Source: Halomonas sp. Bachu 37 (lineage in GTDB: Bacteria; Pseudomonadota; Gammaproteobacteria; Pseudomonadales; Halomonadaceae). Taken from it: a stretch of 64,000 nt of DNA. The notes under the pieces are model-generated. The model saw only the letters and a program-made list of their open reading frames with translations. It did no database searches and had not been told where the DNA came from. The DNA lies in contig NZ_CP137552.1 in assembly GCF_039691755.1 (NCBI RefSeq), positions 930,001 through 994,000 on the forward strand. The letters are read 5' to 3'. Both the position numbers and the translations under genes were made by a program. This document shows positions 1,840-30,221 of the stretch, piece by piece (the stretch's first letter is position 1; the number at the start of each line of letters is the position of its first letter).

Positions 1840-3885
1840 CTAGACTTTAAGGCGCTGAAGATCCCTTAGATACCATTGGTGAAATTTGCTGAAGTCTGAC
1901 TTCTGCTTTACTTCTACCGAGTTGTTATAGATCGCATCACTGGTAAGCGCACAGGCCGTCCATCCAGCCTCATAGACAAAGCGTAAAGCAGTAGTCGTTT
2001 TTTTAGGCGTGGAGTCCCAGGCATTCTTGAGCCAAATTGCCAGCCCTTCATCGGCTGGAACCATCAGATTAAGTTGGCGCTTGGCACGGGTGATTCCAAC
2101 ATAGAACAGCCGGCGCTCTTCCTCGGTTCCGTCTTTTACCATTGGCTCTTTTACCGGCGAGCGTGATCCTAAAGTGGCACCAGGGTAACCGCATGGAAAA
2201 TCTTTTTCATGCAGCCCGATCACCGCAACATTGTCCCACTCCAGGCCTTTACAGCCATGAAGGGTGGAAAGAACAAAAGGCTCACAATCATCATTGCGGC
2301 GACCAGAGTTCAATATCAGGTTCAGAAACGTCCCAGCATTTACCTTGCTCGATTTAAGCAGTTTCTCAATTTTCTCTATACCGCGATACTTATCGTTCGA
2401 ATTCCTACGAGTTACTCCTGCTGATCCAACCCCAGTAAAATAGCCTGCTTTCTCAAGAATATAAAATATGCCAATAGCCAGCGCATCCTCATTATCTTTT
2501 TGTCGAACAGAAGTGAGTTTTTCGAATCGCTCTTTCTGATAGTGAGAACCGACACAAATCCCCCCTAAGACAGCCCACAGGTCAGTATTAGCTGTCATCA
2601 GGCCATTGAGAGCCTCTTTACGTTGCCCTTTCTTCCACTGGAATCCTCCCCCATCCAAGAAACCAGAGATCAGTGACTGCTTCTCTGGGTGGTTTTCTAG
2701 CCGCCCCAAGTTACCGTAGACGCACATCAATGCGCCAACTACTAACAACCCGACTTCAGCCCGTTTGTAGAGCGATGATGCCCCCTGGTCAAGATAACGA
2801 AATGGCAACCCACAAAGGCGTAACACCATTTCTGCTTCCGCTAGGCTCGCCTTAGTGCGCGACAGAATAGCCTGCGTTCCGCTCGCTTCCGACATCTGCG
2901 ACAACACCGCAGGTAAACTATTATCGGAATATATCCTTACATTTGTCTTGGGGGTGCTTGGATGGCTGATACAGAGCTTGGAAAGCTTCGTAGAGTTACG
3001 CCGGATCACCGAATTCGACATTAAGGAGAGCGTGTGACCAAAGCGGAAAGTGCAAGATAAATGATACACTTTTGCATTCTTGAAGTGCTTTTCAAATAAA
3101 CCGCCGATAAAATCAGGCCGAGCCCCACGCCATTCATAGATACACTGATTGATATCGCCAACCGCCATTACTGACGTATCCTCTTTGGCGAGCGAGCGAA
3201 TCATCTCATGTTGAATTAGGTTAACGTCTTGGTATTCATCGACGATGATGTGTTTAAAGTTCATACCGAGATATTGATTGCCACGAAGTAATAAACCAGC
3301 TTCGATCAAGCAATCATCAAAAGTGCGTAAATCATATTCCTCAAGAAGATCACAATACCTTTTGTAAGCACGTATATGCTCTGGTTTACTCTTGCTAAAG
3401 GTTGGGTCTGAAGCCGCTTCATCCGGGGTTACTGCCTCTGCACGGCAACGAGTTATAAATAACTCGAATTCTTCGATTTCATCAGAAGGGATAAAATTCT
3501 GCTTGTGATCAGCTCCTTCTCGGTAGGACTGCCTGACAATCTGCGCGTAACGATAGTCGTCTGATGAGACCAACTCTTTTTTCTTTAAAATTTGCTGGTG
3601 TTCGGCGTTGCTGACCAACTTTAAAGCTAGGCTATGGAATGTACGGACTTCCGGGATCGCATTGGACTTTAATACCACCCTTAGTTTTGCAGCAAAGGTC
3701 TGACTGACTGACTTATTGTACATCAGGATCAAGATAGAGCGGGGATCGATCCCGGACTTTACCAGCCGCTCAACGCGTTTTACCAACGTGATTGTCTTGC
3801 CGCTACCAGGAACAGCCATGACCAGTGCATTGCCATTCTCATGGCTAACAATGCGTTTCTGTTCCCATGTCAGACTTTTCTTCAT
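1840..3885 (-). CDS. UvrD/Rep-family superfamily 1 DNA helicase
   Basis: The 681-residue protein carries a full set of SF1A helicase motifs: Walker A AVPGSGKT (about 24-31), motif Ia TFHSLA (82-87), Walker B DEYQD (216-220), motif III GDINQCIYEWRGA (243-255), motif V TLHGCKGLEWDNV and motif VI EEERRLFYVGITRAKR in the last third. It should use ATP to move 3'-5' on single-stranded DNA. It is shorter and more diverged than housekeeping UvrD or Rep. Its ATG overlaps the stop codon of the upstream CoiA-like gene (ATGA), so the two are translationally coupled. The region is visibly more AT-rich than its neighbours, which suggests transfer as a unit. The function in defence or DNA processing is inferred from the partner. 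Confidence 0.9.
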   Translation of the reverse strand: MKKSLTWEQKRIVSHENGNALVMAVPGSGKTITLVKRVERLVKSGIDPRSILILMYNKSVSQTFAAKLRVVLKSNAIPEVRTFHSLALKLVSNAEHQQILKKKELVSSDDYRYAQIVRQSYREGADHKQNFIPSDEIEEFELFITRCRAEAVTPDEAASDPTFSKSKPEHIRAYKRYCDLLEEYDLRTFDDCLIEAGLLLRGNQYLGMNFKHIIVDEYQDVNLIQHEMIRSLAKEDTSVMAVGDINQCIYEWRGARPDFIGGLFEKHFKNAKVYHLSCTFRFGHTLSLMSNSVIRRNSTKLSKLCISHPSTPKTNVRIYSDNSLPAVLSQMSEASGTQAILSRTKASLAEAEMVLRLCGLPFRYLDQGASSLYKRAEVGLLVVGALMCVYGNLGRLENHPEKQSLISGFLDGGGFQWKKGQRKEALNGLMTANTDLWAVLGGICVGSHYQKERFEKLTSVRQKDNEDALAIGIFYILEKAGYFTGVGSAGVTRRNSNDKYRGIEKIEKLLKSSKVNAGTFLNLILNSGRRNDDCEPFVLSTLHGCKGLEWDNVAVIGLHEKDFPCGYPGATLGSRSPVKEPMVKDGTEEERRLFYVGITRAKRQLNLMVPADEGLAIWLKNAWDSTPKKTTTALRFVYEAGWTACALTSDAIYNNSVEVKQKSDFSKFHQWYLRDLQRLKV

Positions 3886-4868
3886 ATGTCAGCTTCGTAG
3901 TTGGCGCACTGGCGAGCCTCGGTATAGGGAACCCGCTTGGCCTTGGTGCTGCATTGCACGTAACCATTATGCCATTGAGAGGCTTGAGTGCACATAAGGC
4001 AATTAGGAAATCGAGAGAGTGGATCTGCATGACGTAGAAAAGCGAGTAAGCGATCATTGACCTCGGCCAAGCCTAACGCTTTTGGCCATGTGTTGACTCG
4101 TGAATTGGAGGTGAGATCTACGTCAGCGAGTTTAACCATTTGCTCGCAAATTCGACCAGAACTGCTCAAGCTCCAGACAGACATATCAGCGTCACCAGCC
4201 GAGCAGGTGCCTATGCAATCATTCACTTTTCTTGACGGTGGACGCCAATTATATGCACTAAGGCGTTCATCATTGACTGAGTATGAATCGCTAAGCAGTA
4301 TTTGAATATCTGTTGCGGATCGAATCTTAAATTCCAGAATGGGAATGCCAGAATCAATCTTCTCTTGAGTACAGGGGTGAGTAACAAAAATCTCTACATA
4401 GCAGTGTCTATTTCCGAGTGAATCACTAAGCATAATATCCGGCTGCATCCCTGTGCGGCTATCGCGTTTCTCCAATTCTGCTTGGTCAAAGAGCCGCAGT
4501 AAGTTATAAGATGCAGGCACGGTTTTCTGGCACTGCATACTCCTGTCGCCAAGCAACTCTAAACGAGGCCCCTCACAGCAAATGGTTCTCTCAAGCACTA
4601 GCTTAATTGGCGATGCGCGTTTGAGAGCCTGCGTGTAATGGTAGAAGAAAGCCTCTTTGGCACACTTGTGAAGGTACGTTTCAAGGGCGCAGCAATCTTC
4701 AAAGTGACGGAAATGCTTAGCCTTAATTTCGCCTAATATCGCACTTAAGGGGCTTTTGCAGCCTGGGCAGGTGTAAGCAGACGAGCGCTGGGCATCTCTT
4801 ATGTGCGTGAGAACGCCCTGGTCATCCAGAGCGTAAGCGTACTGTATTGAGCTGTCTTGTATTGCCAT
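3882..4868 (-). CDS. CoiA-like zinc-finger nuclease
   Basis: This 328-residue protein has the layout of the competence CoiA-like family. An N-terminal zinc finger has CPGC at 34-37 followed by KHFRHFEDCC (51-60). An LHKCAKE helix (66-72) comes next. The nuclease core has QPDI with Asp144 and VEIFVTH with Glu159, which fits a PD-(D/E)XK active site in which the usual lysine is replaced. A second cysteine cluster lies at the C-terminus (C290, C293, C306, C321), probably a zinc ribbon. The sequence following the core (EKIDSGIPILEF) matches the family pattern. It is the first gene of a two-gene operon with the UvrD-type helicase. No strong ribosome binding site is visible. The domain calls come from motif reading, and the cleavage activity is inferred. 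Confidence 0.78.
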   Translation of the reverse strand: MAIQDSSIQYAYALDDQGVLTHIRDAQRSSAYTCPGCKSPLSAILGEIKAKHFRHFEDCCALETYLHKCAKEAFFYHYTQALKRASPIKLVLERTICCEGPRLELLGDRSMQCQKTVPASYNLLRLFDQAELEKRDSRTGMQPDIMLSDSLGNRHCYVEIFVTHPCTQEKIDSGIPILEFKIRSATDIQILLSDSYSVNDERLSAYNWRPPSRKVNDCIGTCSAGDADMSVWSLSSSGRICEQMVKLADVDLTSNSRVNTWPKALGLAEVNDRLLAFLRHADPLSRFPNCLMCTQASQWHNGYVQCSTKAKRVPYTEARQCANYEADI

Positions 4869-5055
4869 TACAGAGTAATACCCTAAACCTCCCCTAAAGA
4901 ACAGACCTCAAGGCCGGCAAGGGTGAGGTGAGTGCCGAGTGGTGGGAAAGCATTTGAGCCTTTCCTCGATCGTGCCCATCATAGGACTGAGGGACACAAG
5001 GGGGCGCCTTGATCGTCAACGGCTACCGGTTGGGATGAATCCCCTTATGCCAGAT

Positions 5056-5399
5056 TCACAGATCGGCGTGGACGTGACAGATACTGCCCTGCAGGTAGGC
5101 CCAGTCATTGGGTGAGCCCACCGCATGTCCGTTGTCGACGATGTTCCGGCACCGCTTGCCATTTTCGCGAATCGTGGCGCACTGCACGTTATAGCCCGTG
5201 TCATGCCAAGCCAGGTACTCAGCTCGTGTAATGCGGTAATGCTTGGCGAGATAGCCCGCCGGGTCAGCGCAGTAGCGGGGCACATCCTCGGCCGGCAACC
5301 ACACACTAATCTCCCCGGAGGGGCCGGGATGAGCGATGGCAAAGCGGATGTCCTCTCGACCATTTGTGCAAGGCTTGGCGTATCAGCTGCAGTATCCAT
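5056..5399 (-). pseudogene. Cys/His small protein, frameshifted (paralogue of 11017-11409)
   Basis: The ATG at 5399 has a strong ribosome binding site (AAAAGGAGATTC). The reading frame must change once, near 5350, to continue into the conserved part. In the downstream frame the protein reads DIRFAIAHPGPSGEISVWLPAEDVP, then a conserved block: ADPAGYLAKHYRITRAEYLAW, CATIRENGKRCRN, and GSICHVHADL. The same order of features is found in the intact 130-residue paralogue at 11017-11409. The Cys and His residues suggest a metal-binding knuckle. Either a one-base indel killed the gene or the assembly has an error. No known family recognised. Confidence 0.6.
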
Positions 5400-5449
5400 G
5401 AATCTCCTTTTCTCTTGTCGTCCAGTACGGACGGTCGGCATCGGATGGC

Positions 5450-5752
5450 CTACTCCTGCGACGCTTTAGGCGCAATCTGAATGGCCCCTTCGGAGACCAG
5501 GGACTGATACACCACGTGCAGCAGCGCTCGGTGATCTTCGGACGATTCATCGAAATCAGCTTGCTCATAGGCCGTGAGCGTGTCCCACCAGTCGAAGAAC
5601 GCTTGAAAACTGGTGAAGCAAAGCACCTCGCCATCGAGCCCTTCAATCACCGCTGCCCGCATGGCGTCATAGCTGGGCGCTTCCACGCCGGCACTGAAAA
5701 GCGCCTGGGTATACAGGGAGGCGAAATCCTGGGTGAGCGGTTGCTGTGTCAT
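5450..5752 (-). CDS. Hypothetical protein, 100 aa
   Basis: The start ATG follows GAGAGGAACACGAC, a convincing ribosome binding site. The protein is small, acidic and helical, with an aromatic segment CFTSFQAFFDWWDTL (about 45-59) followed by an acidic stretch (EQADFDESSEDHR). No family is recognised. It lies in a run of minus-strand small genes, 31 bp downstream of the gene ending at 5784 and 50 bp upstream of the broken Cys/His gene. Confidence 0.6.
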   Translation of the reverse strand: MTQQPLTQDFASLYTQALFSAGVEAPSYDAMRAAVIEGLDGEVLCFTSFQAFFDWWDTLTAYEQADFDESSEDHRALLHVVYQSLVSEGAIQIAPKASQE

Positions 5753-5783
5753 GTCGTGTTCCTCTCAATAGGGACCGCCCCGA

Positions 5784-6113
5784 TCAGTGGGCGGCGTTAC
5801 GTGTCGCGACGACATGGGAGGCCTCGATAAGCACATTGCGTTCCTCGGCGGAAATGGCACATACCTCTTCCAGGCGAGCCTCGGTGAACAGGGCAGGGAA
5901 GCGGTGGGTGAACGCCTTGTCCGCTGGCCGATGGCAATCGGCTGCCTGGTGGCGCTTCACATGGGTCATACGGATGGTCACCACTTCGCGTTCGATACGA
6001 TCACAGAGGCCGATGACCTGTTCGTACGCCTGTCCAAAGGCGTGAGCGGTACATACAATGTCCCCGGGGGCAATGCCCGTGGTATGGCTACCTGCCTGCT
6101 CGTGGATTGTCAT
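5784..6113 (-). CDS. Hypothetical protein, 109 aa
   Basis: The ATG at 6113 follows GGGAGAAAGCGCGCA. The product has a strand-rich N-terminal half (GIAPGDIVCTAHAFGQAYEQ, then DRIEREVVTIRMTHVKRHQ) and a helical C-terminal half with several cysteines. No family recognised. The frame is open upstream to a GTG at 6437, so it may instead be the C-terminal part of a 217-residue protein that begins with a membrane segment. Confidence 0.55.
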   Translation of the reverse strand: MTIHEQAGSHTTGIAPGDIVCTAHAFGQAYEQVIGLCDRIEREVVTIRMTHVKRHQAADCHRPADKAFTHRFPALFTEARLEEVCAISAEERNVLIEASHVVATRNAAH

Positions 6114-6437
6114 TGCGCGCTTTCTCCCGTGGTGTCGTCTGTAGTGTGAACTTGGCATCCCGTATATGGGGTGGCGATAACACGATGGTACGACAACTCG
6201 GCGGGCCAGCAACTTAGCAAAAGACCCGCCCGCCGAAGGCGGAGTAGAGGGGCTGGATTGAGGTAATACAGGGGTCGAGAGCAGACAGGAGAGGGGGCAG
6301 TCCCAATGCACCCGGGCATATCGGTAGGCCAGCGCCAACCCGCTGGACAGAGGCAGTAGCCACAGCGGGCTCACCGGAGGAGCCGGGGTGTACAACGCGA
6401 TGGGAACTACCATCAGCCACAGACGGCGAAATGTCAC
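6114..6437 (-). other. In-frame upstream extension encoding a membrane segment
   Basis: The frame of the gene at 5784-6113 stays open back to GTG at 6437, which overlaps the stop of the preceding membrane-protein gene as GTGA. The extension reads as a hydrophobic segment (LWLMVVPIALYT, then LWLLPLSSGLALAYRYA) followed by a Ser/Pro- and Arg-rich stretch that does not look well conserved. It may be a separate small membrane gene that has lost its stop, or a real N-terminus. Confidence 0.4.
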
Positions 6438-6616
6438 CCTCGCATCCTGGGAAAGCGGCAGTAGATTCCCATCAGGAGTAACGTCAAAGTAGCCGGGGCA
6501 ATGACCGAAAGGGTTTGCGGCGTGAAGTCGAATACGCCTTGCACTATCACGATGAACGCCAGACCGTTACAGGCGGCCTGGCCCCAACGCGTTTTCACAT
6601 AATGATCAATCTTCAT
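6434..6616 (-). CDS. Small membrane protein, 60 aa
   Basis: The ATG at 6616 lies inside the end of the preceding gene (overlap 11 bp). The protein has a charged N-terminus (MKIDHYVKTRWGQ) and two hydrophobic segments (ACNGLAFIVIVQGVFDF and VIAPATLTLLLMGIYC). Its stop overlaps a downstream GTG as GTGA. This chain of overlaps suggests a compact membrane-protein operon. Function unknown. Confidence 0.55.
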   Translation of the reverse strand: MKIDHYVKTRWGQAACNGLAFIVIVQGVFDFTPQTLSVIAPATLTLLLMGIYCRFPRMRG

Positions 6617-6911
6617 TGGCGAACAACCACCACTGTATCGCGCCCATGCCGCCAATAAAGTAAATGATCACGAAGAACCAACAGCCCATTGAGGAGGCTT
6701 CCTTTTCAAAGCCGAGCACGTCAAAGATCATGTAGCTGTGACTGATCATTAGCCCAAGCGCGACCGCTATCCCCAACGGGTAGCGCACCCACCAGCGCAG
6801 CGATTTACGTGGGGCCCGTAATATGGGCTGTCCGGAGGCGACCAGGAGCAACAGTGGTGACTGCAGCATGACATTGGCGATATCGTGATCATAGAAGAGA
6901 CCGATAGGCAT
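6606..6911 (-). CDS. Membrane protein, 101 aa, three predicted TM segments
   Basis: Hydrophobic segments fall at about residues 13-31 (VMLQSPLLLLVASGQPIL), 44-66 (YPLGIAVALGLMISHSYMIF) and 76-97 (GCWFFVIIYFIGGMGAIQWW). The ATG lies 3 bp after the point where homology of the broken yhcG gene stops, so this gene abuts a deletion or recombination junction. It overlaps the next gene by 11 bp. No family recognised. Confidence 0.55.
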   Translation of the reverse strand: MPIGLFYDHDIANVMLQSPLLLLVASGQPILRAPRKSLRWWVRYPLGIAVALGLMISHSYMIFDVLGFEKEASSMGCWFFVIIYFIGGMGAIQWWLFANED

Positions 6912-6913
6912 CT

Positions 6914-7650
6914 CGTCGGGTTGTCGTCAGCGCCCCGGTGATGCTGGTCATAGAGACGGATGTAGGAGTCCATCTGGCCGACATCCTGGTGCGTGAGCTT
7001 GCCGAGCTTGAGGTCGATGAGCACGAAACACTTAAGGACGAAATTATAGAACACGAGATCCAGGTAGAAGTCCTCGCCGTCGATACTGATGCGCTGCTGA
7101 CGTCCGACGAAGGCGAAACCTTTTCCCAGCTCCAAGAGGAATCCCTGCAGATTGTCGATCAGCCCGCGCTCCAGGTCGGCTTCGAGATAGCGTTCCCCCG
7201 GCAGGTCGAGAAAGTCGAGGATGTACGGATCGCGAAGGTAGTCTCGTGTCGGGGTCTGTAGTGGCTGGGTTTGCTCCTGTGCCTCCTCGCGCACCGCAGC
7301 CTTGTGCAGGCTGCTGAGCAAGCGTTCGTAGTAGAGAACCTCGATCTGTCAGGCCAGAGCACGTACGCTCCAGTGTTGCTCGGCTGCCTCACGCATGTAC
7401 CAGTTTCGGGCAGCGTCTCCCTCAACCTGTAGCAATGTGCGGTAATGGGACCAGCTCAATACGGTACACACTGTGTTCCAAATTGGAAAAGCGAGATAGA
7501 AGGCCCGTATGTTGCGAAGATTACGGGCATCGAAACCGCGGCCATAGTCCACGGTCAACCTGTCAGCGAGCTGCTCGATCTGGCGCTTCCCGTAGGCTGC
7601 CCGGGCCGCGCCTTGCTGTTCGTGTTCGACAATGAGGCGACCAACATGCC
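6914..7650 (-). pseudogene. yhcG: yhcG/DUF1016-type PD-(D/E)XK nuclease remnant
   Basis: The N-terminal part matches the DUF1016 helical domain (HVGRLIVEHEQQG, VDYGRGFDARNLRNIRAFY, VLSWSHYRTLL, HWSVRALA). The C-terminal part matches the nuclease domain (PYILDFLDLPG, FAFVGRQQRI, FYLDLVFYN, CFVLIDLKLGKLTHQDVGQMD, with the D-(14)-D-x-K type core). Three lesions are visible: the 5' end is missing and fused to an ASCH gene near 7650; an in-frame TGA at 7349-7351 separates WSVRALA from QIEVLYYERLLSS; and homology stops after RGADDNPT at 6914, so the last segment is lost. Intact homologues act as DNA or RNA nucleases in mobile and defence settings. Confidence 0.85.
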
Positions 7651-8833: not shown

Positions 8834-9484
8834 TTACCGGCCGGGGCGAGGCTCGGCAGCCAGCCGCTCGGCCGGGTATTGCCGAAGAAACTCGGCGCTT
8901 TGAGCGTCGGTTGCGGACAGCCACTCCTCGACCTGTGCCTGCGGGAGAATGACGACCATCCGCCGTTCGGCCCCGGGACGATGAAAGTGCTGCATCAAGG
9001 GATGATCGTCGGCATTGACCGTCAACATGCTGTAGCTATGCACGGTATCGCCTGCCGGCGAGCGCCAGCGCTCCCATAACCCGGCAATGCTCAGGAGTTC
9101 TCCATCTCGTCGCGTGATGCGTGTGGGAACCGCACGGCCGCTGCGCCAGTCGGGTTCGTAGATGGAGAGCGCCGGGATGATGCAATGTCGGGCCTCGCGC
9201 CAGGCGCCACGAAAGGAGGGCTTGATTGAAGCCGTCTCACTGCGAGCGTTATAGGTCTTCCTGGCCAGCTTTTCATCCTTCGCCCACGGAGGCAGCAGAC
9301 CGAATCGGCCGACGAGAGCGTCCAGGTGGGGCGCGTCTTCGTCGTCTGGGTCAGCATCCTGCGCCTGGCGAATGAAGGGGCCGGTGTAGCCTGGCCAAAG
9401 ATCGTGGGTCACGGGCTCGCTCGGCGCCACGTCGTAGGCTGCCCTCAAGGCATCCATGCTGGGGGCTTCGTAGTGACTGCACAT
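8834..9484 (-). CDS. SRAP-domain protein (YedK/HMCES-like)
   Basis: This family crosslinks its N-terminal cysteine to abasic sites in single-stranded DNA and shields them. The 216-residue product starts MCSHYE, so Cys2 becomes the N-terminal residue after Met removal. It also has FGLLPPWAKD (61-70), KTYNARSETA (76-85, Asn79), CIIPALSIYEPDW (101-113, Glu110 in place of the usual YEW) and TVNADDHPL with HFHRPGAERRMVVIL (155-180). The start at 9484 is fixed by the need for Cys2. Length fits the family. It is a single gene, common on mobile elements. Confidence 0.9.
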   Translation of the reverse strand: MCSHYEAPSMDALRAAYDVAPSEPVTHDLWPGYTGPFIRQAQDADPDDEDAPHLDALVGRFGLLPPWAKDEKLARKTYNARSETASIKPSFRGAWREARHCIIPALSIYEPDWRSGRAVPTRITRRDGELLSIAGLWERWRSPAGDTVHSYSMLTVNADDHPLMQHFHRPGAERRMVVILPQAQVEEWLSATDAQSAEFLRQYPAERLAAEPRPGR

Positions 9485-9698
9485 AGGGCTACCTCGGACT
9501 ATGACTATGCCATCACTATAGCGCGAGGGTCGGTACGGGACCGGGGCACTTTTCGGGCGCCACCTCGTAGACCTCTGCCGGGCCAGTTCCGATCTCTTCG
9601 TTCGCGTTGACTTCAATGAGGCATTAACTGGGGCTTCGGTCGGCTCTCGACAGGCTGGACTGTCGGTCTCACTGGGGAAATTCTAGGTGCAGGCGCGC

Positions 9699-16360: not shown

Positions 16361-16837
16361 CTATACCGGTGTACGCGCAACCGGGTCCGGCGCCGGGTTG
16401 AAGTAGGCGATGTAGAGCTCGCGTGCGACCTTGCCTGCCTTCTCGCACATCTCGCTATCGAACCAGCCGAAGTGGCATTCGCTGACCGGGATACCCAGCC
16501 GATCAGCCAGCGCCTGATAGGCCTCGCGGCGCGTCATCCTACCGGTTTCGTACAGGGGCGTGAAACGGGCCTTGCTGTGCTTGCGGGCTTCGCGAATGGC
16601 ATCGGTGACCAGAGTGCCCAGCGGGATGTCGGTTTTCGGATGTATACCGACCCGGGCCTCGCAACCGGTACATAGGTAGAACCAAGGCCAGGAGCCGTAG
16701 TCCTGACCGTAGACCTCACGGTGCGACGCAACGTCTACCGGGGATTGGCAATGCGGACAGACCACCGGTGGTGGCAACGGATCAGTGACGCGGGAAATCG
16801 CCCTGGGGCATGGAGATTGCGGAGTAATGTCGGACAT
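16361..16837 (-). CDS. DUF3268-type zinc-finger protein
   Basis: The 158-residue protein has an N-terminal zinc finger CPHCQSPV (27-34) paired with CTGCEARVG (56-64), with YGSWPWFYLC between. It continues with the family signature GTLVTDAIREARKHSKARFTPLY and a C-terminal part ALADRLGIPVSECHFGWFDSEMCEKAGKV. This layout fits DUF3268 (zinc-finger-containing domain), a family common on phages and integrative elements and usually of unknown role. It is the first gene of a run of minus-strand genes down to 15443. Confidence 0.8.
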   Translation of the reverse strand: MSDITPQSPCPRAISRVTDPLPPPVVCPHCQSPVDVASHREVYGQDYGSWPWFYLCTGCEARVGIHPKTDIPLGTLVTDAIREARKHSKARFTPLYETGRMTRREAYQALADRLGIPVSECHFGWFDSEMCEKAGKVARELYIAYFNPAPDPVARTPV

Positions 16838-16922
16838 TTTTGTGTCTCGTTATTCGTTATAGAGCGATGCTAGCACTAAAGTATCGAGATAAAAGAGCGC
16901 TAATACAGGCTGAAAGCGGGCT

Positions 16923-16950
16923 ACAAACCCCCACGCAGTGAGGGTTTTTG
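16923..16950. terminator. Terminator-like hairpin
   Basis: AAACCCCCAC and GTGAGGGTTTTT form an imperfect stem around GCA, with a T-run on the plus strand. It lies between the DUF3268 gene and the RCC1 fragment. Its owner is unclear. Confidence 0.4.
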
Positions 16951-16955
16951 GACGA

Positions 16956-17154
16956 TCACTGTCCGGGCCGGACAGCGGTAGGCATGAGGCGCTGATCTAT
17001 GCGCCCATCACCTAACTTGCCTGAACCATTCCTGCCCCAGAGCCAGGCCTGGCCATGCGCGGCTCCAGCGGTGTGGTATGCGCCAGCGCCCATGACTGGC
17101 ACCCCATCATTGAGACCCTCCACCTTCACTGGCGCATGCCTATTCACGGTAGTG
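16956..17154 (-). pseudogene. RCC1-repeat fragment
   Basis: The minus strand encodes VMGAGAYHTAGAAHGQAWLWG followed by RNGSGKLGDGRIDQRLMPTAV, one clear RCC1-type beta-propeller blade plus the start of another. The 5' side is cut by the IS3 fragment at about 17150. RCC1 proteins need about seven blades, so this is the tail of a destroyed gene. Confidence 0.65.
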
Positions 17155-17570
17155 CCGTCATCTCGTCTCGGTAGGTGCGGTTGAAACGTTCGACATAGGA
17201 GTTCTGGGTCGGTGTTCCGGGCTTGATAAATTCCAGCATGATGCCCTGTTCTTCAGCCCAGCTCGCAAGCGCGAGAGAGATGAACTCCGGGCCGTTATCC
17301 ATCCGTAGCTTTGTGGGATAGCCGCGCCAAGTGCTGATGCGTTCCAGTACACGGATCAACCGCGGCGCTGGCAGGTTCAGGTCAATCTCGATGGCTTCCC
17401 GGTTAAAGTCATCCACCACATTGAAGGTCCGGAACCGACGGGCGCAGAACAGGCTGTCGCTCATAAAGTCGATAGACCAGCAACGGTTAGCCGATGCCGG
17501 CACGGCCAAGGGCTCGGGGTTGCGGCTCGGTAGTCGCCTCTTTCTCCGCCCGTTTGCGCTAGTGTAAGCC
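17147..17570 (-). mobile_element. IS3-family orfB (DDE transposase) fragment
   Basis: The frame reads RNPEPLAVPASANRCWSIDF, DFNREAIEIDLNLP, LRMDNGPEFISLALASWA and NSYVERFNRTYRDEM. It contains the three acidic catalytic positions of an IS407-type IS3 transposase (D in WSIDF, D in MDNGPEF, E in YVERFN). The N-terminal part before RRKRRLPSRN and the C-terminal end after YRDE are missing. It is truncated on both sides and inactive. Confidence 0.85.
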
Positions 17571-17851
17571 GGAGAACTCTAATTGCGAATGCCGCTATTT
17601 TAGGGGAGGGTTACAATGGTTTGTCCTTTATCAATATGGAATGTGGTTATTCCAGTTCTAATCGTATGGCTTCGGATAGGCATAACAAAATGCGCAGCGC
17701 ACGCACACAAACAACATGGTTTAAGGTTGAGTGGTACATAGCATGTCCTATGATGGCGCTCTAATTCGTAAATTTGATTAATTTGCCAAGCTTGCTGGTC
17801 GTAACCTTCATGCTACCGTACTTGTGTCTATTTTAATAAGGATAGGTAGCA

Positions 17852-19207
17852 ATGAAAAAGAAAAATGAGAAGCTAACTACCAAGAATCTTGAAAAGCTTT
17901 CAAAGTTATTGAAACGCGGAGAAGAAGCTTGGGACCTTGATATTTCTGGATATCATGTGCGCGCTGGTAGCCGTGGGCTGGCGCTTCGCTTTTCATACTA
18001 TAATGAGATTGGTAAAAGGCGCGTTCTTTCGTTCGGCAGGTATGGAGAACTAACGGCAGCAGAAGCGCGTGAGTTTGCACGTGAATCCGCAGCGCTTGTC
18101 GCCAGGGGAGGAGATCCGCGTCAATTGATTGAAAACTCCAAAGCGGAGGTTAGGCGAAACGAAGAAAGTACAGTAGGAGCATACCTGCAATCCGCTTATC
18201 ATTATCATCAGTCACGTATGCAAGATGGTAAGGGGACTTTGGGTCGAATCCGTAGGGATTTTACTTGCTGGATGGATCGCCCCATGGCGTCGCTGACTCG
18301 GTTCGATGTGGAAGAATGGCAGACATATCAAGAAAAGCTAGATGATAAAAAGGAGCAGGCTAGAATTGAAGCTATCTCTAAAGGTGAGGAACCTAAAAAG
18401 GGGAAGAGGTCTTTTAAAACGCTGAAAAAGTCTTATGATTCGATTCATGCTATGCTTGAGCATGCTGCCTCCCGCAGCATAATCGAAAACAATCCGCTGA
18501 AAGGTGTCAAGCTTCAGCCCTACTCGCTTCCTGATACTGAGGAGAGGGTTACTGAATCGCGTAGGCATCTAAGAGGTGATGAAACTGAACGGCTATTTAA
18601 AGGCTTGCAATTATATAACGAAAAATTAAAAAAAGAACGTAGGAATAGTAGAGCGCATGGTAAGAAGTATCTCCCTGATCTTGATCTGGTGAGGTTTTCT
18701 AGCCATCATGTGCCATTCATACTCTTTATGTATTATACAGGGTTTCGTCAAGGCGATATTTTTGAACTGCGCTGGGAGCATTTGGACTTTGAAAACCAAC
18801 TGATAAGGAAAGTCATTTCCAAAACAAAAAGGCATCACCCAGCTCCAATGGCGTTTCCTATGTCGTCAGAGCTCATGCGGGTGTTGGGTGACTGGTATGA
18901 TCAGCGTGGTGGTCCTGTTACCGGCCTGGTTTTCCCTTCCCCAGTGACTGGCAGGATGCTGACTAACAAGGCGATGGATAAATCTTGGGCTGCCGTTAAG
19001 GATTTAGGTGGCCTACCAAAAAGTCTGCATATGTATAGCTTGCGACATAACTTTGCTAGTCAATTAGTTATGTCAGGGGTTGATCTCCTGACTGTTTCTA
19101 AGTTGATGGCGCATACCAATATCGAAACTACGGTTAAGTATTACTCTCATCTTAATCCTGGTCATACAAGAAACGCCGTAGAAAAAATGGCAAAATTTTC
19201 CTCGTGA
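17852..19207 (+). CDS. Tyrosine recombinase / integrase
   Basis: This 451-residue phage-type integrase has an N-terminal DUF4102-like domain (ISGYHVRAGSRGLALRFSYYN, LSFGRYGELTAAEAREFA), a SAM-like core-binding domain (about 105-220) and a catalytic domain. The catalytic domain has YTGFRQGDIFELRW (first Arg), MYSLRHNFAS (second Arg at about 398, with Tyr where the box II His usually stands), LMAHTNIETTVKYYSHL (His about 421, Tyr about 430). The ribosome binding site is AAGGATAGGT. The gene is AT-richer than most neighbours. It probably mobilised at least part of the island. Confidence 0.9.
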   Translation: MKKKNEKLTTKNLEKLSKLLKRGEEAWDLDISGYHVRAGSRGLALRFSYYNEIGKRRVLSFGRYGELTAAEAREFARESAALVARGGDPRQLIENSKAEVRRNEESTVGAYLQSAYHYHQSRMQDGKGTLGRIRRDFTCWMDRPMASLTRFDVEEWQTYQEKLDDKKEQARIEAISKGEEPKKGKRSFKTLKKSYDSIHAMLEHAASRSIIENNPLKGVKLQPYSLPDTEERVTESRRHLRGDETERLFKGLQLYNEKLKKERRNSRAHGKKYLPDLDLVRFSSHHVPFILFMYYTGFRQGDIFELRWEHLDFENQLIRKVISKTKRHHPAPMAFPMSSELMRVLGDWYDQRGGPVTGLVFPSPVTGRMLTNKAMDKSWAAVKDLGGLPKSLHMYSLRHNFASQLVMSGVDLLTVSKLMAHTNIETTVKYYSHLNPGHTRNAVEKMAKFSS

Positions 19208-19524
19208 CTGCCTAGTTGCGCATTTACGCTTTTCGCCAACGATAAAATTATTCACTTACTTGAACTGATTGCGCCTGGCCAGTCATGGTTTTCTACAGTT
19301 ATAAAAGAAGGAATTTAAATAGGCTGGCCTCGACGTAGACCTATTGGTGGGGCTATCTTTCATACTTCATCCAGGTAATCGGCTTTGATTGGTTATGCCA
19401 AGAAGATGAGCGATGTCTATCAGATAATTTGGATTACGAGGTGAAGTTTTTTTGTGTATGGCTAAAATTTCATTAAAAATTAAATATTTATTGAGACCAT
19501 GGGGAACATGCCAATGAGAGAGAA
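19208..19524. other. AT-rich intergenic stretch
   Basis: No gene seen. The region between the integrase and the next insertion sequence is AT-rich and would be the usual place for an attachment site, but I cannot identify a core repeat. Confidence 0.5.
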
Positions 19525-19552
19525 TGTAATGACCCCCTGGTTTTTGCTCACC

Positions 19553-20368
19553 TCAAGCGACAAGTGCCGGGTGCGCTTTGGGTGCCACATAGCCCAGTGA
19601 CTGATGTGGCCGCTCTTCGTTGTAATACCGAATCCAGCGACCGATGACGGCTCTTGCCTGGCCTAATGACTCGAAGCGATGAAGTCAGATGCACTCTTCC
19701 TTCAATGAGCGGAAGAAGCGTTCCACGAGGCCATTTTGCTCTGGTGTGTACGGCGTCGTTAACTCCTGGCTCAGGCCATACGCCTTCACCGTCGCCGTGT
19801 AGTGCCGGCTGCTGAAAACGAGCCCGTTATCCGAGCGTAGCGCTAGAGGCTGATGTACCCGCCCCAGAGCGCCGAGTCGATGGATCAGGGCCTCTTCCAG
19901 GGCGGCTTCCGCCGTCTTGCTGCTGCCATTGTCCGATAATCGCCAACCAAGGATCTCCCGCGTGCAGCAGTCAATAATGACTGCCAGTCTGGCTCGACGA
20001 TCCTTGCCGCACCAGACATGAGTGAGATCCGTGGCCCAGCGCTCATCAGGCTGCGTGGTCACAGATGGCAAGCTCTTGGCACGAGGCCGAAACCCTTGGG
20101 GCCGCTTGCGCACCTGCCAGCCCTTGAACTGCAGGATGCGCTGTACGGGCTTGCGGTTCTCACCCAGCACACAGGCCAATCGTGGGTAACCATACGTGGG
20201 GAAGCGTTCCAGGGTCAGCTTTACCCGTGCTTACAGCGCTGTATTGATCATGCGCTGACGTCTCCTGGGCCGGTAATAAACGCTCCGTCTGGGGACGCTT
20301 AGCCAACGACAGAGGTTAGCTAGCGATACCGAATGGCCCTCGTTGGCCAATTCCGCCTGCAGCGACAT
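19553..20368 (-). pseudogene. IS3-family orfB transposase, two in-frame stops
   Basis: From ATG 20368 the frame reads LQAELANEGHSVSLANLCRW, then YYRPRRRQRMINTAL, a TAA at 20231-20233, ARVKLTLERFPTYGYPRLA, the rve core ([39 protein letters not shown]), a TGA at 19685-19687, and the C-terminus LHRFESLGQARAVIGRWIRYYNEERPHQSLGY. Catalytic D, D and E are in place, but two nonsense mutations prevent a full product. The TGA most likely replaces a Trp codon. Confidence 0.85.
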
Positions 20369-20679
20369 TACGAGTTGTCGTCCTCGTCGAGCAGGCGGCG
20401 CCACTTTTTTGATGCATAAATCTGCAGATGAGTTTCGCCCAGCGCCTCCCTGGTCTCGCGCAGTTCGGACTCGTACTGTTCACGGATATCCTTGGGGCGG
20501 GCCTTGAAGCCGTTCTCCATACTACGCTGGGCTTCCTCGATCCAGCCCTCGACTTCGGAAACCGTCAAGTCGTGCTGCCGGGCCACCTCAGCTACGATGG
20601 TCTTGCCTTTGAAAATATCCATGACTACGGCGGATTTGCGCTTGGCGGTACAGCGCTTGATTGATTGTTCTTCGCTCAT
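20368..20679 (-). CDS. IS3-family orfA, helix-turn-helix protein
   Basis: The ATG at 20679 follows GGAGGACAAA. The 103-residue protein has a helix-turn-helix (SAVVMDIFKGKTIVAEVARQHDLTVSEVEGWIEEA) followed by a charged coiled region (REQYESELRETREALGETHLQ), typical for orfA of this group. Its TAA overlaps the orfB ATG by one base. It is intact while orfB is broken. Confidence 0.85.
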   Translation of the reverse strand: MSEEQSIKRCTAKRKSAVVMDIFKGKTIVAEVARQHDLTVSEVEGWIEEAQRSMENGFKARPKDIREQYESELRETREALGETHLQIYASKKWRRLLDEDDNS

Positions 20680-20857
20680 TTTGTCCTCCTGGTTGCTGCA
20701 CGATAGCCTGTGCAACTTTGGAGGGGGTCACTTCAAGAATACTTCGTTATCGAGTTTCCACTTTGGGGCCGTTGAGGCCTACGGAGGCAAGCATCACTAT
20801 AATAAGTATAGGGATGCATGTGTAATATTTATAATTCCTGATTTTCCCCTGGCTAGT

Positions 20858-21522: not shown

Positions 21523-22386
21523 TCAGCAACTACACATCTGGAACCGACCGAGATACAGGCCGGCCAGAGCTGGGGAATTACCACCACCGGGCTCTGTAGG
21601 CTTACCGATCTCACCCATTAGTTTCAAATGAACGGGAGAAGCTTTCATCAGTTTCCTGACATGATCATGACGTCGCTTTATCCACGATGTCGTGCGTTTA
21701 AGCCATTGCCCCAAGCCCAGCGCATCCTTGAACGTCAAGGTCGCCCGTTTGCGTTTTATCCAGCTCCATAAGGACTCCGTTGGATTCAGCACAGGCACAT
21801 AAGGCGGCAGCGGCTCCAGACTCAGGCGTGCCTGAACGTCCGGTTGGCGCAGCCACTCACGAACCTCTCGGCAGCGATGAACCGGGGCGTTGTCCCAGAT
21901 GATTCGCAGCTTGCCGCGCCAGTACCGGAGCAGTGTTTTCAGGAAGGTAACGATGGTAGCCCCGGTAACGGTTCCCGGCGCCCAACTGAAATAGGATCGT
22001 CCCTGAAGTGACACGGCACCAATCACCATGTGGAGAGGCGATTGCCCCCGCTTCCCTTTGACAACTGGGGTCCTGCCCACGGAGAAAATGTCTCCCGGTG
22101 ATGCGAGCAGAGGTGGAAGCTCGACTCATCCACGAAGATCAGGGTTTCTTCCTGTCTCCGGGCCTGTTTTTAATTCCGGCCAGATCACGTCTCGCCAGTG
22201 TTCGGTAGCGGCTTCGTCGCGGCAGATATCCTGTCGTCTGGGCTTCTGCCAGGACCATCCACACTGCTTCAGGAGCCGCCCCATGTGTGTCTGGCTATAC
22301 CGAACGTCCGTCAGCCGAGCGACCGAGTCGACAATACGCTGTATCGTCCAGCGCTGATCCTCATAGCCAAAGGAGTTATCGTCAAA
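21523..22386 (-). pseudogene. IS630-family transposase, frameshifted
   Basis: Pieces in three frames make one transposase: YEDQRWTIQRIVDSVARLTDVR, HMGRLLKQCGWSWQKPRRQD, HWRDVIWPELK; then EETLIFVDESSFHL; then GRTPVVKGKRGQSPLHMVIG, LRIIWDNAPVHRCREVREWL and LPPYVPVLNPTESLWSWIKR. The DDE residues are in VDES, WDNAPVH and NPTESLW. At least two frameshifts (near 22165 and 22080) and a changed C-terminus after GEIGKPTEPGGG make it inactive. The 5' end abuts an IS256 fragment. Confidence 0.85.
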
Positions 22387-26920: not shown

Positions 26921-28286
26921 GTAAAACTGATGGATGGCCGTCAGGCGGCAGTCCTGTCTGACTGATCAGTTACCTGCTCTCCGTCCTGGAACTTGACGTT
27001 GCTGACGACCAGTTCCAATTTCTGAAAATGCTTGATGCGTCTCCAGCGTTTCTGGGCGCTCTGAAGCAGCTTGAAGACCATCGTCAGGGTCGTCGCTCGG
27101 GAGCCGCAGTTCCGGCTGCGCTTGGTCCTTAGGCGGACCGTGGCGAAGGCCGACTCGATCGGGTTGGTGGTGCGGATGTGCACCCAGTGCTCTGCCGGGT
27201 AGTCGTAGAACGCCAGCAGTTCGTCCCGATCCTTGGCCAAGCACGCCATCGCCTTGGGGTACTTGGCCTCGAAGCGTTTCAGGGTGCGCTCGAAGGCCTT
27301 GTGCGCCTCGTCGCGGGTCTCGGCCATCCAGATGTCATGGAGGTCGGCCTTGACCTTGGGCTGAACGGATTTCGGCAATTTGTTCAGTACATTAGCCGTC
27401 TTGTGGACCCAGCAGCGTTGATGGTCGGTTTCGGGGTGAATCTTGCTCAGCGCCGCCCAGAACCCCATGGCGCCGTCGCCTACTGCCAGCTTGGGAGCCT
27501 GAGTTAGGCCGCGTTCTCGCAGGCCCATCAGCAGCGTCTTCCCGCTATCCGCCGACTCGCGGAAGCCGTCCTCGACGGCCACCAGTTCCTTGCGGCCCTG
27601 CTCGGTGACGCCGATGATCACCAGCAGGCACAGGCGGTCATCCATGCGGACATGGCTGTAGATGCCGTCGGCCCACCAGTAGACGTAGCGTCGGTCTGAC
27701 AGATCCCGCTGCCGCCAGTCGGTATGCTCGGCCTCCCATTGCTTCTTGAGCCGAGACACCGTGTTGGCCGAGAGCCCCTTGGCCTGTTCGCCCAGCAGTG
27801 CCGCCAGGGCCTCCTGGTAGTCGCCGGTGGAGATCCCCTTCAGGTAGAGCCAGGGGATCAGTTCCTCGATGCTACGGGCCCGCTTCAGGTAGGGCGGCAG
27901 CAGGCTGTTGTTGAAGCGAGCGCCACCGCCGCTGCGGTCACGCACCTTGGGTACCTGCACGCTGACATCCCCGACCCCAGTCTGGACAGTCCGCTCGGGC
28001 AGGTAACCGTTGCGGACCACGGCTTGGCGGCCATCATCGAGCCGTTGGTCGGCAGTCTGCGCCAGGAAAGCGGCCAGTTCAGCCTCGACGGCCTTGGCGA
28101 TCAGGTCACGGGCGCCTTGGCGCAGCAGCTCGTGCAGCGGGTTAGCGACCTGGGGTTCTGGTTGTGAAAGAGCCCGGAGGGTAGAATCGTTCATGGCGTA
28201 TCCACTCATGTTGATTGGGATCTTGGTCGTGATCAATCAACAGGATACGCCACCCTTCCTACCTCCACCCGTACACCAGAAATCAC
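26921..28286 (-). mobile_element. Intact IS256-family insertion sequence
   Basis: Related ends are CTGATGGATGG at about 26928 and, on the complement of the right end, CTGGTGTACGG ending about 28286. One uninterrupted transposase fills the element. No clear target duplication was recognised at the flanks. The deleted copy at 22387-22876 is a close relative. Confidence 0.85.
26941..28194 (-). CDS. IS256-family (mutator-type) transposase
   Basis: The 417-residue protein begins [13 protein letters not shown] and contains the DDE positions in [15 protein letters not shown] (first Asp), [14 protein letters not shown] (second Asp) and [15 protein letters not shown] (Glu). The IS256 signature [14 protein letters not shown] is present. 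In-frame starts exist further upstream (ATG at 28209, TTG at 28236). No stop or frameshift is seen, so it may be active. Confidence 0.93.
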
Positions 28287-30144: not shown

Positions 30145-30221
30145 TGGTCGGAGCGACAGGATTCGAACCTGCGACCTTTGCAACCCCATTGCAACGCGCT
30201 ACCAAGCTGCGCCACGCTCCG
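30145..30221 (-). tRNA. tRNA-Pro (GGG)
   Basis: The minus strand folds into a full cloverleaf: acceptor CGGAGCG/CGCTCCG, D-stem GCGC/GCGC, anticodon stem TTGCA/TGCAA with loop ATGGGGT (anticodon GGG), T-stem GCAGG/CCTGT around TTCGAAT, and an encoded CCA. The 77-nt gene separates the accessory region on its left, that is past its 3' end, from core genes on its right. This is the classical position for island integration. Confidence 0.97.

Follow-up and report, generated by a model that had tools for sequence, protein, structure and literature searches.

Gene pair in the Halomonas window

We describe two overlapping genes, one for a CoiA-like nuclease and one for a UvrD-type helicase, in a 64,000-nucleotide stretch of the Halomonas sp. 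Bachu 37 genome (contig NZ_CP137552.1, positions 930,001 to 994,000). This whole stretch is referred to as the window, and coordinates are counted from its first letter; other loci are cited by L numbers. The pair is laid out as follows.

3882..4868, minus strand: CoiA_N / PD-(D/E)XK-like nuclease gene, 328 amino acids (aa)
1840..3885, minus strand: UvrD-type superfamily 1 (SF1) helicase gene, 681 aa
3882..3885, minus strand: ATGA overlap of nuclease stop and helicase start, 4 bp

Both open reading frames (ORFs) and their 4-bp overlap agree with the two-gene arrangement given in a preliminary description of this DNA, and the same overlap was computed in 13 of the 14 relatives compared, the exception (L015) having a longer nuclease frame. 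That description had also called the pair AT-richer than its neighbours, which is borne out by a guanine-cytosine (GC) content of 47.2% versus 56.5% for the remaining window; none of 610 stepped 3,029-bp windows has a GC content as low.

The two genes stay together

A genome-collection search with the nuclease alone as query returned 18 loci. Homologues lying apart had been set beforehand as a possible refutation of the proposed defence module; in 16 of the 18 (L007-L022) a helicase gene lies directly downstream on the same strand. The hosts are Pseudomonas, enterobacteria, Aeromonas, Motilimonas, Zhongshania, Marinobacter, Rheinheimera and Alkalimonas, and in L009 and L011 the helicase is truncated at residue 558, close to where the contig stops. 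The two loci that lack a helicase, L023 and L024, are distant partial matches (27-30%), and the weak relatives L002-L004 (33-38% over parts) gave no helicase match in the 3.2-3.5 kb examined. The genes are also adjacent in the annotated plasmid copies read, and they occur together in every close relative whose neighbourhood could be read.

Plasmid records give a similar picture at the level of totals. With an E limit of 1e-3, the nuclease matched 806 of 72,556 records (793 of them 60-80% identical); with a limit of 1e-60, the helicase matched 796 (795 of them in that identity range). The two genes have equal counts in their four main host genera, Enterobacter (258), Salmonella (225), Escherichia (177) and Klebsiella (67), these being totals per genus and not a record-by-record pairing. 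Compared by eye, 20 of 66 nuclease clusters (the window's excluded) share their longest-contig size with a helicase cluster among the 120 of 611 listed.

Nuclease and helicase protein distance matrices for 14 pairs (the window, L005-L008, L013-L015, L017, L019-L022 and L025) correlate at r = 0.98, a value that none of 5,000 permutations reached; the comparison omitted L018 as a near-duplicate of L017, L016 for its frameshift, and also L009-L012, L026 and L027. In six comparisons the nuclease had a ratio of nonsynonymous to synonymous substitution rates (dN/dS) of 0.09-0.21 and the helicase one of 0.12-0.31, values that indicate purifying selection on both genes. Insertion sequences interrupt the helicase gene in L027 (IS26) and in L031, the single E. 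coli chromosomal copy (IS100).

Carriage by an ISKpn25-like transposon

IncHI1, IncHI2, IncC and Pseudomonas plasmids carry the pair inside an ISKpn25-like (ISL3-family) transposon, a vehicle for these genes that is newly documented here. Very different plasmids have in common a sharp-edged 4.1-kb stretch, about 99% identical among L010, L025 and L026, whose ends are inverted repeats (GGCTATTTGCA..CT.AGGTTGGA). Both ends are present in L005, L006, L010, L012, L025, L026 and L027, and the left end only in L009 and L011. A perfect 8-bp repeat borders every complete transposon copy on both sides, and the duplications are of five distinct kinds.

GAAAAATT: L005, and L031 at the same site
CATTAAAC: L006
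TATGTTTA: L010, L012, L027
AAAAAAAG: L025
CAATAAAG: L026

On pMAK1 the pair is inserted between trhN and trhI, and this site is empty, with a single target copy, in R27 (NC_002305.1) and pKP14812-MCR-1. The plasmid R478 (NC_005211.1) has the pair at 83841-86863.

ISKpn25 is reported as an ISL3-family element of 8,154 bp (PMC8796155). The plasmid copies resemble it in their end sequences, their 8-bp duplications and a remnant of HsdM, but ISKpn25 itself lacks the pair: in L029 (pKp11-42) an 8.2-kb ISKpn25 element with similar ends and an 8-bp duplication (CATTTTTT) holds hsdM, hsdS, hsdR and an ISL3 transposase gene, and the pair is absent from it. The flanks of the ISKpn25 element in L030 differ at one of eight bases. 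The IncC plasmid NZ_CP133339.1 (L006:11672-23088) has an 11.4-kb ISL3-family element, again with an 8-bp duplication, in which the pair lies between ISKpn25-like ends with an ISL3 transposase gene and hsdR, hsdS and hsdM, a type I restriction system. The 4.1-to-4.4-kb units in L005, L010, L025 and L026 retain sequence that matches residues 1-70 of HsdM, read in one or two frames. On the simplest account, the pair would have joined an ISKpn25-like restriction-carrying transposon, and the form that later spread would be one with an internal deletion and no transposase.

No ISKpn25-like end pair was found at 13 other loci (L007, L008, L013-L022 and the window), and the window gave no ISL3 transposase, HsdM or HsdR match. 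The copies in Pseudomonas luteola, duriflava and asuensis (L007, L008 and L016) have in common a different unit of about 3.3 kb, with two ends alike (CGRCCMATAGCTGCC) and no clear target duplication.

Distribution

Among 5,426 complete E. coli genomes, 117 contain the pair (115 with at least 80% of the query), and 122 of its 123 places are on plasmids. A class-wide search matched one of 369 genomes, the window's own; a set of 97 relatives, among them 60 further members of the window's genus, gave four matches, of which only the window's own was full length. A collection of 50,697 phage records gave no match. In IMG/VR, the nuclease has one 31% relative (L035), which lacks a neighbouring UvrD gene, and a helicase match (L039, IMGVR_UViG_2724678986_000024) lies on a contig of which long stretches match IncHI2-type plasmid DNA at 97-99%. 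The L035 relative (L035:9998-11077) is a CoiA_N protein of 359 aa whose C-terminal Cys pattern is similar; judged by eye, its adjoining genes resemble those for a GIY-YIG nuclease and for a PAPS reductase.

Genomic company of the other copies

Neighbouring genes were scanned as hand-chosen ORFs without a matched control for defence enrichment, 10 in each of three sets, 9 together with one distant relative in a fourth set and 5 in a fifth. The pair moves between plasmids as one unit, and several of its copies are found inside restriction or Septu loci or next to them. In L021 (Rheinheimera), the genes from the pair outward encode HsdR, HsdS, PtuA, PtuB and HsdM, the nearest at 261 bp; in L022 (Alkalimonas), they are a type IV restriction gene and genes for HsdR, HsdM, HsdS and PtuA, the nearest at 398 bp. 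These are the most divergent copies, both on non-plasmid contigs, and their association with restriction and Septu genes looks independent because they have no DNA match of at least 150 bp outside the pair and its edge.

In L017 (Zhongshania aquimaris), genes resembling TniQ and TniB and one of rve/Mu type, its rve match below cut-off, begin 3.4 kb downstream of the pair (16390-20751), and a gene for an Mrr restriction nuclease (1107-1931) lies about 8 kb upstream; their presence within 21 kb suggests carriage by a Tn7/Tn5053-like element. Other neighbours are an ORC-CDC6-like ATPase gene and a calcineurin-like gene in L018, a Fic gene just upstream of the pair in L014, a weak dynamin-like match in L020, a Y-family polymerase gene in L007, and relaxase and transposase genes in L013. 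In L027 and L005, terD lies about 4-10 kb from the pair; the ter operon has reportedly been linked to the inhibition of phages (PMC8123226).

The two proteins

The only Pfam match of the nuclease is the CoiA N-terminal domain (CoiA_N), and it is marginal, at 27.1 bits versus a cut-off of 26.3. No CoiA nuclease model is among its Pfam matches at E up to 10, NCBIfam gave nothing at E up to 1, and a PDB sequence search returned chance-level triosephosphate isomerase rows only. In PADLOC at E up to 1, DruB models are the sole matches, with no GajA model. Conservation was read from an alignment of 34 rows, taking 33 of the 66 relatives.

4689..4769, minus strand: first Cys/His cluster, C34-C60; C34, C37, H52, H55 and C60 invariant
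3906..4001, minus strand: second Cys cluster, C290, C293, C306 and C321, each at least 90% conserved
4236..4688, minus strand: restriction-endonuclease-like core, residues 61-211
4437..4439, minus strand: D144 of the PD motif, invariant
4392..4394, minus strand: E159, invariant; canonical lysine two residues later absent
4359..4361, minus strand: K170, invariant; candidate migrated catalytic lysine

E179 is also invariant. The conservation of both Cys/His clusters upholds the two zinc clusters of the preliminary description. Its PD-(D/E)XK-like core stands as regards the fold: a core that fails to adopt it had been set beforehand as a second possible refutation of the defence module, and the model came out restriction-endonuclease-like on a second look at the structure comparison, with D144 and E159 invariant, but the canonical lysine is not conserved. 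K170 may be that lysine, migrated.

The helicase matches Pfam UvrD-helicase (PF00580, 155 bits) and UvrD_C (PF13361, 69.9 bits), and 202 of its 681 positions are invariant across 15 aligned helicases. The sequences of the full SF1 motif set, as described earlier, are present, among them the following.

3793..3816, minus strand: motif I (Walker A), AVPGSGKT
3226..3243, minus strand: motif II, VDEYQD
2080..2124, minus strand: motif VI region, EEERRLFYVGITRAK

Its PADLOC matches include GajB (5.6e-48) and RTasHel (2.2e-48), and it matches the models Rep (7.2e-47), PRK11773 (3e-46) and PcrA (3.5e-46). The solved GajB structure matches residues 201-292.

Comparison with known systems

Gabija, which combines a UvrD helicase with a nuclease (PMC10952713), is like the present pair in this composition and in the match of the GajB models to the helicase. 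However, the partner here is CoiA_N/PD-(D/E)XK-like and has no GajA (ATPase-TOPRIM, OLD nuclease) match in Pfam or PADLOC; the helicase is as close to Rep, UvrD, PcrA and RTasHel as to GajB, and it is 681 aa long versus 493-499 in the solved GajB chains. As GajA is absent, the pair is not Gabija, and since the nuclease shows no relation to GajA the comparison is an analogy.

The competence nuclease CoiA (COG4469/PF06054), a predicted PD-(D/E)XK nuclease (PMC1189080; PMC1913061), has the CoiA_N domain in common with the present protein, which differs in matching Pfam over that domain only, in having an extra C-terminal four-Cys cluster and a helicase partner, and in lacking a conserved lysine or glutamine at the E-X-Q/K position. 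A CoiA domain also occurs in one of 21 systems from an experimental defence selection in E. coli (Vassallo et al. 2022, PMC9519451); in contrast to our pair, the word 'UvrD' is used 0 times in its text. PMC10952713 lists Helicase+DUF2290 (Rousset et al. 2022), which joins a UvrD-type helicase to a partner gene, but DUF2290 is not among the Pfam matches of our nuclease at E up to 10. Druantia, a system of DruE and further Dru genes, is approached through the DruB N-terminal part of the nuclease only (5.3e-5); no Dru model was found among the 25 listed of 55 helicase matches, nor in seven window neighbours scanned.

Surroundings of the pair in the window

The preliminary description placed the pair among nuclease, HNH and nucleotidyltransferase genes. 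These gene types are present, but "among" is a loose term for their distances from the pair, which are 1.9 kb for a truncated YhcG_C nuclease gene, 4.9 kb for NTP_transf_8 and 8.3 kb for HNH_2. The stretch in which the copy is situated is strain-specific and contains an integrase and transposases.

6767-7321, minus strand: truncated YhcG_C (DUF1016) nuclease gene; PADLOC PDC-S02 at 1.1e-58
17852-19207, plus strand: tyrosine integrase
21523-22080, minus strand: DDE_3 transposase fragment
26941-28236, minus strand: Mutator-family transposase

The N-terminal part of the YhcG_C gene is judged missing because the profile match begins inside the profile. An SRAP-type peptidase gene lies 4 kb from the pair (8834-9616, minus strand), and on the P. 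aeruginosa plasmid L026 the pair likewise has an SOS response-associated peptidase gene (1802-2347) close by.

Across 81 further genomes of this genus, the flank at 4880-6500 has no counterpart and the flank at 600-1835 only one 49-bp match at 78%; as both are essentially unmatched in the genus, no empty site can be demonstrated for this copy. The mobile-element-rich stretch lies to the left of tRNA-Pro (30145-30221), and a tRNA-targeted island is not supported here, the tRNA-Pro 3' end (30145) being unrepeated (at least 15 nt) across the 104 kb examined. Inverted 19-nt repeats with 16 of 19 positions matching bracket the pair at 1691-1709 and 4964-4982, a match that none of 60 random flank pairs reached; the outer flanks contain no duplication, and we hence do not claim these repeats as element ends. 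A promoter and terminator scan found fewer sites than in its shuffles.

Interpretation and alternatives

Because the two genes travel jointly between plasmids and chromosomes and sometimes lie beside known anti-virus genes, we consider them probably a two-gene defence system: a horizontally mobile cassette in which the helicase would engage DNA that is invading or replicating, for the PD-(D/E)XK-like nuclease to cut. We infer the defence role, the target and the molecular steps from the pairing, selection, mobility and genomic company described above. When DNA of a phage or plasmid invades, the SF1A helicase may load at its ends, gaps or replication intermediates and translocate; it would then deliver or activate the zinc-cluster nuclease, which would cut the unwound DNA. 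Functionally, this would be a split helicase-nuclease analogous to Gabija, in which a CoiA-type nuclease replaces the OLD/TOPRIM one. The defence module proposed at the outset came through both of the possible refutations set beforehand, and it holds as far as a conserved nuclease-helicase module in defence-like settings is concerned, and the likeness to Gabija on which it drew is analogy only. Defence is better supported by the relatives, as a passenger of a type I restriction-modification (RM) transposon and beside RM and Septu genes, than by the window's neighbourhood, and this support is partial.

Several observations weigh against a defence cassette. The window copy's own neighbourhood is weakly defence-like, and the copy lacks ISKpn25-like ends, the best match in the 64 kb having 7 mismatches over 21 scored positions. 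The defence association of other copies is anecdotal, and among the few ORFs scanned in L008, L015, L016 and L019 there is no clear defence neighbour (conjugation and partition genes in L008 and L016, metabolism and signalling genes in L015 and L019). The L016 copy (Pseudomonas asuensis) is frameshifted, and the distance correlation speaks for co-transfer, not interaction. As for the nuclease, the E-X-K position holds F, C, Y or H in place of the canonical catalytic lysine, the PADLOC match is a weak one to the DruB N-terminal part (5.3e-5 and 0.0027), and plain Foldseek of the core against the PDB gave no match at E <= 0.001, so that the statement of a restriction-endonuclease-like fold rests on the second structural look. 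We found no phage or plasmid challenge of the pair in the literature.

The target might be rival plasmids or conjugating DNA rather than phage, so that the pair would serve competition between plasmids. The near-exclusive plasmid location in E. coli (122 of 123 places) and the absence of matches in the 50,697 phage records fit such a role, but nothing plasmid-specific was seen in the sequence, and copies of chromosome type have ordinary RM and Septu genes next to them; we regard it as possible at a fairly low probability. As it overlaps with the mobile defence cassette, the probabilities that we attach to the several readings do not sum to one.

It is unlikely, in our assessment, that the pair is an accessory for repair, recombination or plasmid transfer that processes the DNA of its own carrier, AddAB-like, during conjugation or replication. 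Mostly conjugative plasmids carry it (673 of 806 records), the pMAK1 insertion lies between trhN and trhI, and the SF1A family includes repair helicases. Yet R27 and pKP14812 keep the same transfer region with the site empty, and the distribution is patchy (1 of 369 class genomes), both of which weaken this role, and copies on non-plasmid contigs lie beside RM and Septu genes. A part in the transposition machinery of the carrier element is highly improbable: the 4.1-kb units, clean-ended and flanked by 8-bp duplications, contain no transposase gene that was recognised, but an ISKpn25-like element with the same ends has moved without the pair (L029), which weakens such a part, L006 has its own ISL3 transposase, and many copies lie outside such elements.

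Returning to the defence cassette, our searches of the open-licence PubMed Central literature found no description of the pair. We lean slightly towards a fuller claim, that this is a previously undescribed anti-phage or anti-plasmid system whose sole parts are the CoiA-type zinc-cluster nuclease and the UvrD-type helicase, that it has been spread by ISKpn25-like elements, once together with type I restriction, and that, present on R478 and about 800 sequenced plasmids, it possibly contributes to the phage inhibition ascribed to ter. If the pair protects cells, a compact nuclease-helicase architecture would join the known defence systems, the CoiA domain would gain a role outside competence with a defined partner, and an ISL3-family transposon would be seen to move two defence-type cargoes between large plasmids.

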